This document shows positions 35,796 through 44,002 of a stretch of DNA of 64,000 bases, in pieces (position 1 is the first letter of the stretch; the number at the start of each line of letters is the position of its first letter). This DNA is from Balamuthia mandrillaris (lineage: Eukaryota > Discosea > Longamoebia > Balamuthiidae), in contig JAVKOQ010000018.1 in assembly GCA_031835245.1 (NCBI GenBank), positions 315,001-379,000 of the forward strand, given 5' to 3'. The notes under the pieces are model-generated. The model was not told the DNA's origin, searched no databases, and saw only the letters and a list, made by a program, of their open reading frames with translations. A program made the translations under genes and the position numbers.

Positions 35796-38700
35796 ATGTA
35801 CGGGCTTATACTTTCAGTGTTCCGGGACCTGCTCCTGAAGCAACACGGGGAGGACCAATGGATAGAGGTCTGCCGTCAGGCCAAGACCATCTCCAGCTTC
35901 GAGGAGGAGGAGCCTTACCCTGACGCCTGGCTTTATCAGCTGGCTACCGCTGCCTCCGAGGCAAGTACATCCACAACCCGTTATAACAGCCGTTTTGTTG
36001 ATAAACCCAAAAAAACAAAAACAATAAACAGCTTTTGGACATATCCGTGCCGGAGCTGCTTGAAGCATTGGGATACTATCTCATCGAATACATCTTGAAA
36101 ACGGTAAACACAACAACACTTTACAACAAAGAAAACAAGATAGAGTAACGTTTGATTTTTATTTATTTTTCGAACAGGACTACAGCAAACTGTTGAACCT
36201 TGCCGGCAAAACTTTGCCCGAGGTCTTGAACAACATCAACCGCATGCACGGTAGCCCCTCCGTTTCTCCTTTGTTTTTTTTCCCCCTCCTCAACATCCTC
36301 GGTCTTCTTTCTCTAACAAAAAAAAAAACAGGTCATCTTAAAGCATCACCACTTCATCAGGTACTATTTTTTGTTTTCAAAGGTTATCTAGTCCGTTTTG
36401 CTTCAGAATGACTTATTCTTTGGTTTTTTTCCCCATCCGTACATATAACGTCGTTATAGATGTCGCCTCCGACATTTCGGTGCACACAAGAGAAACCAAA
36501 CAGGCTGCGCTTGCATTACATTCCTGGCGTGGCCTCCAGAGTAGCTCTGGCACCCCTCGTTATTGGTTTCTCTCTTTCTCTCTCTCTCTCTATGTCAGAT
36601 GCACTAACTCTCTTCTTTCAACAAAACAGGAATCGTGAAAGGTCTTGCGGAACGCTATCTCAACCTCGACCACTTAACCGTCAAACAAAAACGGTTCAAG
36701 GAGAAAGGGGACGACCACGACGAGTTTGTCGTCCGCTGGAAAACTCCCTCTCTGTCCAAAGACGCTGCGCTCAACAGCGGTTCCGACAAGTCTGTCAGTT
36801 CGGAAAACAGTTTCCCGTTGGTGCATGGACTCTCTCCTTCTTCTCTGGACGAAGCCTTTCCATTTCACATTGTTTTCAACAAGAAACTGGAGATAGTACA
36901 AATGGGAAAGGTTCGTTTGCTTCTTACTCTTCTTCAGTGTTTTGTGTGAACATTCTCTAACTTAAATGCCAGTCGTTAGCTAAGCTGATCCCAGCTGAGA
37001 AAGGAGACTCTCTATCGTCTTTCTTCACCTTGGACAGACCATCTACGGCCTCCTTCAGCTCTTGGAGTTCGCTTTGCAAGCACTGCAAGACTCAGTACTT
37101 TCAGTTGCTTCACAAGTATGACCACTCCAAAGACTTTATCCTCAAAGGACAGGTAACCATTCTCTTTCGTCTCTTAGTTCTCCCTCCTTCGTTTCATCTT
37201 GTTATTTATACCTCTTCGCAACTTGATAGATGTTATGGAACGAAAAAGAAGATGTAATGTGCTTTGTTGGCTCGCCATTGTTGGAGCGTATTGAGGATGC
37301 CTCCTACTTTGGGCTGAGTATGTCAGACTTTGCATTACACGATAACTCTACCTCCATTCTGCTCATGCACAGCACCTCTCCTAGCGGAACAGAGGACAGG
37401 ATTTCCTTCGAAGGTCTGTTGGCTTCTTGTGTTGATAAATGTTCTTGTTCTTGTTCTTCATCTGTTTCTTCTTCTTTGTCTTATTCTTACGTATTGTAAA
37501 TATCAGAACCTCTTTCGCCAAGATCAGAAGACTATGAACGGAAGCGAAACGTATTGAAAACATGGTTCGATTCCAAACTTTCTTCAAACGAAACAACAGA
37601 GACAACCACAAAGAAAAAAAAGCGAAGTTCGCGACGATCTAAAAGACTATCGCATGTTCTTCATTGTTCGTTCCTCCTCTTCATTATCCTCCTCCTCTCG
37701 CTCTCTCGTTCTCTGTGTCTCTTTCTTGGTTTCATTGCTGATCATTGGCCCGTTATCTGTTTCATTACAGCTATACAATCTCATGTCTCTTCCAACGAGA
37801 AGAACGAAGTTGGAGGAGGCTCTACCATATGTTTCTCCTCCAAAGGGCGTTCACGTTCAGCTTCACCATCGTTTGACGTCTCAATGGATGAACTATCTCT
37901 GTCATCCTCGACCTCTTCCCCCAACTCCCCCTCCTCCTCTTCTACTTCTTCTTCATCTTCTTCTGCTCCTTCATCCGCTCGTTCTCCTTCTCCATCATCA
38001 TCAGCTTCTCATCGTATTTATAATGCATTCTACCAGCTGTTGATTGAGGATGGATGGAGCGGATATCCTCTCATGAAAGCTTTGCTCACTCACATCATGA
38101 AGACACCCTCCACTCAAGTCGATCGCGTGTTTGATGCTGCGGTGAGCCTGCATAAACGTTCTGGAAACTTGATGTCGTTCTTGGAGGCATTGCTTATGCA
38201 AGATATAGGGCGCTCCACTAAAGGTACATTTTTCTACTCTTTACTTCGTCTCTGCTCTCTTCTTATCTTCATGCGTGTTAACGATATATAAACATAGAAA
38301 CGTTGTTAAGGAGTGACGGACCCTCTATAAAGGTGCTTCACGCGTTCGTCGAACAGGAAGCACAGTCCTACATCACCAAACTTGCCGAAAGCATGAAAGA
38401 GTGCATCGAAGGAAACAAGAAAAGCAACCTGCACATCGATACAGAACGACTTACCGACAAGAACATGTCTGAACACAATGCAAGGATACTTCTGGCAGTT
38501 GCTGAACGGTGGTTGAGGATTCTTTGCACCTCCGTTAACCATTGTCCGCCGTATGTTTTTCCCTCTGTCTTTCTTTCCACTTAATGCTGATGTTTTCAAC
38601 CTACAGTCCTTTGAGAAGACTGTTGAAACGTATAAGTGAAGAAGTGGCATTTAAATATCCGGACTTGAGCATTTCTGCTGTCGCCAACGTGCTGTTCTTC

Positions 38701-39347
38701 CGTTTCATAGGGCCTGTGCTCCTCACTCCTAAAATCGGCGAAGGTAAGTTTCTATCCTTTCATCCGCTCCTTCCAATTCTTCTCTTAACTTTTCTTTTGC
38801 TTTCGAACATGCAGAACGAGATCTGAAAAGTCAGAGAGCGCTGACGGTTGTATTCAAAGTGGTGCAATCGTTGGTCAACATGGTGGAGTTCCCAGAATCG
38901 GAGGATAATGCCATGAAGCTGTTCAACACGTTCTTGTCCACGGAGAACCACATGTACCTTCGAAACTTTGTGATAGCACTCATCGTATGTTTCTCCAGTC
39001 TCTCGCTTCTCTCCTATTTCTGTTGTTGTTTCGTGCCCTTCTGACTTTCATGCTTCAGGACGAAAGCAAGATTGTTGCAGCCGAAACGCAATGTTATGAC
39101 GACGTCATCGCAACGCCAAGAGGCGAGGCCACCGAAGAATGGATGAGATCCTCCATCTCCGTCATCAAGGATGCATTCCTTCAAAACATGGAGTTTCTTT
39201 GGGCCACATTCACTTCTGATCCACAATTGGTACCTTGCCCCTCTCTCTCTCTCTCTCTCTCTCTCACTCTCTCTCTAACCTTTGGATAAAAAGGGAACTT
39301 TGTTGCAACGCTTTATTGCCACCAGTCTCAACTCCATACGATGCTGA
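35796..39347 (+). CDS. H-NOX - HNOBA - RasGAP protein, copy 1 (predicted gas-sensing GTPase-activating protein)
   Basis: Fifteen exons: 35796-35960, 36032-36103, 36178-36250, 36332-36360, 36460-36565, 36630-36910, 36973-37152, 37230-37413, 37507-37665, 37771-38223, 38298-38550, 38607-38743, 38815-38984, 39059-39229, 39294-39347; 828 residues. Residues 1-200 are an H-NOX (heme-NO binding) domain starting MYGLILSVFRDLLLKQHG, with His103 in INRMHGHL at the position of the proximal heme ligand. The YxSxR heme-propionate motif reads Y133-I-P-G-V. Residues about 225-385 are HNOBA (EAFPFHIVFNKKLEIVQMGK, LKGQMLWNEKEDVMCFVG, YFGLSMSDFALHD). After a Ser-rich linker, residues about 500-800 are a RasGAP domain with Arg572 in TLLRSDGPS (arginine finger) and Arg684 in VLFFRFIGP. 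No cyclase domain is present. Intron 1 uses a GC donor. Confidence 0.9.
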
Positions 39348-42900: not shown

Positions 42901-44002
42901 GTGGAGAGAATGGCAGAGTGCTTGGAGAGCGTCAAGAAAAAGAACCTCGAGATCGATCCGAGTAGACTGTCGGACAAGAACATGTCGGAGACGAACGCCA
43001 AGATACTGTTGAACATTGCTGAGCGTTGGTTGAAGACTCTCTGCGAGTCATCCAACAACTGTCCTCCGTATGTTTCTCCTTTTTCCTTTCTTGTTCTTGT
43101 TCTTCTTCTTGTTCTTCTTCTTCTTCTTCTTCTTCTTCTTCTTCTTCTTCTTCTTTTTTCTTCTTCTTCTTCTTCTTCTCTTTCTTCTTCTTCTTCTAAT
43201 TGAAACCCAAACAAAAGAGGATTGAGGAAGTTGTTGCGACGGATAAGCGAAGAAGTGGCGTTTGCTCATCCAGAAATGAGTGTCTCTGCAATCGCCAACA
43301 TCCTATTCTTCCGGTTCATTGGTCCTGCTTTGCTCACTCCGAAACTTGGTGAAGGTAGTCATTCACTTCTTTTTTCATCAGCGCTCACTTCTTCTACTTC
43401 ATCTTCTCTGTGTCCTAACAACAAAGGTTTTCTCTTTAACAGAAAGAGACATAACAACACAAAGAGCATTGACAGTGGTCTTCAAAGTGGTTCAAGCCTT
43501 AGTCAACAAGGTGCAATTCACAGACGCTCAGGACAGCTACATGAAGCCTTTCAACTCATTCGTCTCAACCGAAAACCAACAACTGCTGCAAACCTTTGTG
43601 ATGGATCTTATCGTACGTTTCTCTCTTCTCTCTCCTTTTATTCTTTCGTCTAAGGTTTTGTGTTTTTTTTTTTTTAAAGGATGAAGCAAAGATTGTTGAA
43701 ACGGAACATCAACAAACGGTCGAGAGAAGCAAAGAAGACGAAGACTTTGTGGTGCGAGCTTCCATGGCGATCATTCGAGACGCCCTTCTACAAAACATGG
43801 AGTTCTTGTGGAAGGCCTCCATCTCTGACCCTCAGCTGGTACTTCTTGTTCTTCTTCTTCTTCTTCTTCTGCTTCTTTTCCTTGTTCTTCTTCTTGTTCT
43901 TCTTCTTCTTCTTCTTCTTGTCCACGTTATAACGAACCAACGCAACAGGGCACATTGCTTCAACGTTTCCTTTCGGTGGGCCTCTGCTCCATTCGTTTTT
44001 GA
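39951..44002 (+). CDS. H-NOX - HNOBA - RasGAP protein, copy 2 (tandem paralogue)
   Basis: Fifteen exons: 39951-40115, 40178-40249, 40328-40400, 40854-40882, 40971-41076, 41133-41398, 41493-41672, 41854-42037, 42106-42348, 42426-42743, 42815-43067, 43218-43354, 43443-43612, 43680-43838, 43949-44002; 802 residues. Ten exons have exactly the lengths of copy 1, and all phases match. The H-NOX part keeps His103 in INSMHGHL; the YxSxR position is Y133-M-P-G-N. The HNOBA part has FPFHFSFNKKLEIVQMGK and FGLSMSDFAMHD. The RasGAP part keeps the arginine finger as Arg550 (TLLRSDAPS) and ILFFRFIGPALLTP. The linkers between HNOBA and RasGAP have diverged in length and sequence. Retention of both heme and finger residues argues that both copies are active. 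Intron 3 holds a very long CTTT array. Confidence 0.9.
40453..40785 (+). repeat. (CTTT)n, (GTTCTC)n and (TTTCTC)n compound microsatellite in intron 3 of copy 2
   Basis: About 44 CTTT units (to 40629) are followed by ten GTTCTC-type and nine TTTCTC-type hexamers. The array lies on the coding strand just 5' of a normal TTTGAATAG acceptor and has no counterpart in copy 1. Confidence 0.95.

Follow-up and report, generated by a model that had tools for sequence, protein, structure and literature searches.

The well-studied output of H-NOX domains in eukaryotes is guanylyl cyclase, and it is on this point that the H-NOX proteins of Acanthamoeba castellanii are contrasted in the genome paper of that amoeba (PMC4053784). 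Within soluble guanylate cyclase (sGC), the signal is described as being transmitted by the straightening of coiled coils (PMC6839917). In Balamuthia mandrillaris, the 64,000-nucleotide window analysed here (positions 315,001 to 379,000 of contig JAVKOQ010000018.1, also referred to as C17) carries two tandem genes on the plus strand, gene A (35796..39347) and gene B (39951..44002). Like the beta subunit of sGC these encode an H-NOX domain with its proximal histidine, followed by an HNOBA domain, starting from residue 1, and in gene A the match to sGC beta-1 extends over residues 1-350 (phmmer E-value 9.7e-34). Unlike that subunit, both possess a RasGAP domain in place of the cyclase. At the level of sequence this fusion is real and recurrent, and RasGAP is a new effector for the known H-NOX sensor family. 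On balance, it appears somewhat probable that the two genes encode a tandem pair of heme-sensor RasGAPs responsive to nitric oxide (NO).

Parts of this arrangement are found in other described systems. The stand-alone H-NOX proteins of bacteria belong to the same H-NOX family, with the H-NOX profile matching Alr2278, presumably of Nostoc, with an E-value of 7.4e-49 (sGC beta-1, 3.1e-35). The signal transduction histidine kinase H-NOXA resembles gene A in possessing an HNOBA-like domain with no cyclase (PDB 2p04, E-value 3.1e-10; PDB 2p08, E-value 5e-10; both of which we take to be from Nostoc), and differs from it in being a histidine kinase, as known by PDB name alone. Neurofibromin and p120 RasGAP share with the Balamuthia proteins the catalytic RasGAP domain with its arginine finger and second arginine; to our knowledge, neither has heme-sensor domains. 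The Acanthamoeba castellanii H-NOX proteins are likewise amoebozoan and are not joined to guanylyl cyclases, and a term search of the main text of that genome paper returned neither “RasGAP” nor “Ras GTPase” (PMC4053784). Among the titles and opening lines of abstracts in the open-licence PMC literature, no other H-NOX work on amoebae was found, while the terms “nitric oxide”, “heme” and “guanylate cyclase” are absent from the main text of two Balamuthia papers (PMC8569187, PMC10471605). A combination of H-NOX (HNOB) with RasGAP was not found in the open-licence PMC literature, in agreement with the original prediction, which knew of no description of this architecture.

The original prediction placed the pair at 35796..44002 and this span proved exact, reaching from the start codon of gene A to the stop codon of gene B. 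Rebuilt from its splice sites, each gene consists of 15 exons which together form a single open frame, of 828 amino acids for gene A and 802 for gene B, both being composed of H-NOX, HNOBA, a linker and RasGAP (spliced models and Pfam). In these models the intron phases of the two genes agree at 14 of 14 positions and exon lengths are identical for 11 of the 15 exons. All 28 acceptors are AG, with the donors being 14 GT in gene B and 13 GT and one GC in gene A, the latter belonging to intron 1, which is the only GC-AG intron among the otherwise GT-AG introns of the pair. The gene B product is 100% identical to the public protein P0002, and that of gene A corresponds to P0001 apart from 12 residues that the latter has inserted at intron 1. 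The public labels of these two proteins are “Heme NO-binding protein” and “Heme NO binding associated”. The 12 residues are removed by GC-AG splicing of intron 1 (35961-36031) and are absent from all five other proteins of the family described below that span this region. Intron 3 differs in size between the genes, with 81 bases in gene A and 453 in gene B (40401-40853), the latter mostly made up of tandem repeats of TCTT (52 copies) and CTCGTT (18.5 copies).

Between genes A and B, the ratio of non-synonymous to synonymous differences per site (pN/pS) is ~0.33 in both H-NOX and RasGAP, ~0.37 in HNOBA and ~0.60 in the linker. Estimates of synonymous divergence (dS) range from 1.2 to 4.0, and the duplication is therefore old. 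The possibility that the genes are pseudogenes was rejected, as both frames are open and their sequence is constrained.

All three domains were identified in both genes by hmmscan against Pfam, using the curated cut-offs of 25.5 bits for HNOB, 23.4 for HNOBA and 28.3 for RasGAP, confirming the prediction of adjacent H-NOX-HNOBA-RasGAP genes without a cyclase. HNOB (PF07700) covers residues 2-158 of both products, with 112 bits for gene A (E-value 3.4e-32) and 105.4 bits for gene B (E-value 3.8e-30); with its end motif mapped, the H-NOX domain occupies exons 1-6, at 35796..36739 in gene A and at 39951..41242 in gene B. HNOBA (PF07701), which is PAS-like, scores 94.2 bits in each (E-value 1e-26), with its core at 36857..37334 in gene A and at 41345..41958 in gene B (residues 212-352). 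RasGAP (PF00616) scores 53 bits in gene A (E-value 5.4e-14) and 69.1 bits in gene B (E-value 6.4e-19); together with the C-terminus, this region spans 38046..39347 and 42566..44002. No further Pfam families were detected in either product at E-values up to 0.001, nor was the guanylate cyclase domain (PF00211), which was matched in both cyclase-type proteins used as controls (P0007 and P0008).

It had also been suggested that the same domain order be sought in other organisms. The protein searches, which scored the best 7999, the best 8000 and 6595 candidates, gave a union of 11 distinct proteins, and among the candidates scored the order HNOB-HNOBA-RasGAP is present in seven of these (P0001-P0005, P0010 and P0011), two from Balamuthia and five from elsewhere. 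P0011 is an N-truncated member of this family and the other six are N-complete. P0004 originates from EukProt, possesses a Trinity transcript name and bears all three domains, so that another eukaryote probably has them together in a single assembled transcript. The remaining proteins are the cyclase-bearing P0007 and P0008, P0009, with RasGAP as its sole listed domain, and P0006 (674 amino acids), which has HNOB and HNOBA and no other Pfam family at E-values up to 0.01. P0006, and the match of histidine kinase PDB 2p04 to the HNOBA domain of gene A, contradict the statement in the original prediction that HNOBA is otherwise found with cyclase. No Acanthamoeba-named proteins were among the matches of these searches. 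One of the searches, a profile search from an alignment (A2), returned four proteins and missed known family members, probably owing to words in the low-complexity linker.

In a tree of 60 H-NOX sequences, built without the truncated P0011 and without open reading frames (ORFs) scoring below 60 bits, the six RasGAP-family rows form one clade (100/100; bootstrap not settled). The placement of this clade with respect to bacterial and cyclase-type H-NOX is left open by the same tree, in which 23 of 57 inner branches are open. P0006 lies outside the clade, though it has the longer propionate motif described below. Viral and bacterial origins of the whole fusion were both considered and rejected on the matches in viral and genome contigs. 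In viral contigs there were 42 pattern-matching stretches, none being a confirmed relative, and in genome contigs there were 41, of which six were confirmed, with no in-frame HNOBA or RasGAP; the ORFs of these six bacterial relatives end 180-191 residues past the start of the match, the lack of an in-frame RasGAP setting them apart from the Balamuthia genes. Within the bacterial phyla sampled, H-NOX matches were present in 32 of 294 genomes in one sample (38 places listed) and in 54 of 282 in another (59 places listed).

The catalytic arginines of RasGAP are conserved. The arginine finger (R550 of P0002) and the second arginine (R662, in the FLR motif) are each present in 7/7 family proteins. 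The finger motif TLLRSD (38300..38317 in gene A, 42817..42834 in gene B) aligns with TLFRGN of neurofibromin, and FFRFIGP (38695..38715 and 43306..43326) with its FLRFINP, both arginines being in register, which upholds the assignment of these motifs made in the original prediction. With the gene B RasGAP domain as query, neurofibromin was matched with an E-value of 1.9e-19 and p120GAP with 5.6e-13, while residues 528-751 of gene A match neurofibromin in a search of solved structures.

For the H-NOX domain, the proximal heme histidine (H103 of P0002) is kept in 7/7 family proteins, lying in a MHGHL region that is interrupted by intron 3 in both gene A (36244..36339) and gene B (40394..40861). 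Tyr133, Arg140 and Leu146 (P0002 numbering) are also present in all seven. Position 146, which we take to be equivalent to the distal tyrosine site of O2-binding H-NOX proteins, is thus occupied by leucine, and on this basis NO is the proposed ligand.

The Balamuthia genome (64.8 Mb, 775 contigs) was searched exon by exon, with the best candidates scored. All HNOB matches (3/3), HNOBA matches (3/3) and H-NOX-HNOBA protein matches (10/10) fall on genes A and B, and no canonical sGC was seen in these searches. Guanylate cyclase domains are present elsewhere in the genome (13 matches), RasGAP is abundant (109 matches) and there are Ras-like genes whose identity to the Ras sequence entered as query is as high as 76-77%. 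An additional RasGAP match lies on the same contig at 307243-307503, ~7.5 kb before the window.

The reading of genes A and B as NO-responsive heme-sensor RasGAPs draws on the order of their domains, their single frames, the conserved catalytic and heme-ligand residues and the presence of Ras-like genes; heme binding, NO as ligand, the coupling and its direction, and the cellular role are what we infer from these. The H-NOX domain would hold heme through His103 and, given the leucine at the distal position, NO would be bound by that heme. The PAS-like HNOBA domain would mediate dimerisation or docking, and the RasGAP domain, with its standard arginine finger, would cause Ras to hydrolyse GTP. 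On ligand binding the sensor may then detach from, or attach to, the GAP domain or the membrane. The coupling would run along a long flexible linker instead of the coiled coil of sGC, and Ras-GTP would be altered at feeding or motility sites without cyclic GMP (cGMP). A broader proposal, which we put forward tentatively and rate slightly below an even chance, is that of a heme-based NO receptor acting directly on Ras without cGMP, as the only H-NOX-type pathway found in the genome, in which the duplicated pair could form a sensing dimer and which is conserved across several organisms as a single clade, with a remodelled propionate clamp that may tune affinity.

A number of features weigh against the proposed NO sensor. 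The distal-pocket assignment depends on position 146 being the equivalent of the tyrosine site. No match to NO synthase was found in the exon-by-exon search of the genome, and the source of NO could be prey or host. The YxSxR motif, said to stabilise the heme propionates (PMC8196705), is present in 0/7 family proteins (0/8 when P0006 is counted). It is replaced in all seven, and in P0006, by Y-x-[PS]-[GS]-x-x-x-R, which is three residues longer and has its aligned arginine at Tyr+7 instead of Tyr+4 (YIPGVASR at 36517..36540 in gene A, YMPGNASR at 41028..41051 in gene B). The Tyr+2 residue is serine in P0003 and P0011 and proline in the other five. None of the seven has a serine two positions ahead of the aligned arginine; P0005 and P0006 have an extra arginine at Tyr+4. 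Both cyclase-type proteins possess YxSxR. Among 63 bacterial H-NOX ORFs it is retained by 61, with the other two having neither motif and none having the longer one. This count is from 64 loci (62 from the genome searches and two added to them), mostly best matches and mostly from two sampled phyla, of which 63 yielded an ORF, and the motif was counted anywhere in the ORF; in the six loci aligned, it was at the aligned site in all six. The absence of YxSxR from the family, given its retention in bacterial and cyclase-type proteins, raises the possibility that heme is bound weakly or no longer at all. Descent of the domain from H-NOX holds at the sequence level and heme competence is less sure.

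The region between sensor and effector also weighs against the proposed sensor. In six family proteins the HNOBA match stops at profile position 174-189 of 216 (P0001 is excluded from this range, its extent being that of the first of two matched stretches only), whereas both cyclase-type controls match through to the last position, 216. The family thus contrasts with sGC beta in having no YxSxR and, for these six members, no C-terminal HNOBA match. The linker between HNOBA and RasGAP varies in length from 106 to 355 residues across the family, which argues against tight mechanical coupling; 68-76% of it is made up of S, P, K, E, D, R, T, G, N and Q, with 9-44 prolines. An sGC-type coiled-coil segment after HNOBA was not encountered, as judged by the extent of the HNOBA profile match and linker composition, with no coiled-coil predictor applied. 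The linker is otherwise little conserved save for Lxx[LW]F[GD]SK in P0001, P0002, P0003, P0010 and P0011 (LKTWFDSK at 37554..37577 in gene A, LKTWFGSK at 42213..42236 in gene B), which is possibly a docking or membrane-binding helix; its F[GD]SK core is missing from P0004 and P0005. With the altered propionate motif, the shortened HNOBA match and the long variable linker, the mechanical coupling of sGC cannot be assumed, and a linker of this flexible kind would point to release, docking or targeting and not to a rigid lever.

The main rival to the NO sensor is that the H-NOX and HNOBA domains are heme-free and serve as a dimerisation or targeting module of a constitutive RasGAP, which we consider unlikely, albeit a serious alternative. 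The loss of YxSxR from the whole family favours it, as does the precedent of sGC alpha, described as retaining H-NOX without heme, the moth alpha subunit also being without YxSxR (PMC8196705). However, the heme pocket of sGC alpha is reported to be occluded by an N-terminal extension (PMC8196705), and the six N-complete family proteins have none, starting at the first residue of H-NOX. The proximal histidine, the motif tyrosine and an arginine are moreover invariant in 7/7 proteins, and between genes A and B the H-NOX domain is as constrained as RasGAP.

H-NOX domains vary in their choice of ligand, and a heme-bound sensor could instead report O2, CO or heme redox state. The lack of an NO synthase match in the exon-by-exon search would suit such a sensor, but the leucine at position 146 in all seven proteins, at what we take to be the site of the O2-stabilising tyrosine, speaks for NO. 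The Acanthamoeba H-NOX proteins are also described as being without the distal tyrosine, and their authors inferred NO signalling to be likely (PMC4053784). A ligand other than NO is regarded as improbable. It is less probable still, to the point of being hardly credible, that separate adjacent H-NOX-HNOBA and RasGAP transcripts were joined in annotation. While the frame of gene A does have internal methionines ahead of RasGAP, each paralog has one 15-exon frame with matching phases, the F[GD]SK motif recurs in 5/7 proteins and the transcript-named P0004 bears all three domains; in addition, the annotation of a ~65 Mb Balamuthia assembly, which appears to be that of the window, is reported to have taken RNA-seq reads as input (PMC10471605). 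A misreading of two unrelated neighbours as one gene was rejected on the intron phases, the recurrent linker motif and the three-domain transcript-named protein.

Should the NO-responsive RasGAP reading be true, diatomic-gas signalling would gain a direct line to Ras, and one heme sensor would be shown to drive an unrelated output. The pair would also be a candidate for the response of a free-living amoeba to NO from its prey or surroundings. In Dictyostelium, Ras is described as shaping feeding structures, and NF1, a RasGAP, as limiting macropinosome size and affecting phagocytosis (PMC4374526).

In the vicinity of the pair, the ORFs downstream of gene B (44208-45756) occupy two frames, contain hydrophobic stretches that by eye resemble transmembrane segments, and gave no Pfam match at E-values up to 0.01. 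Scans of the window with ARAGORN and Rfam gave no matches. Upstream of gene A, on the opposite (minus) strand, lies a partial Hsp70-like gene at 33981-34688 (PF00012, E-value 1.2e-18).

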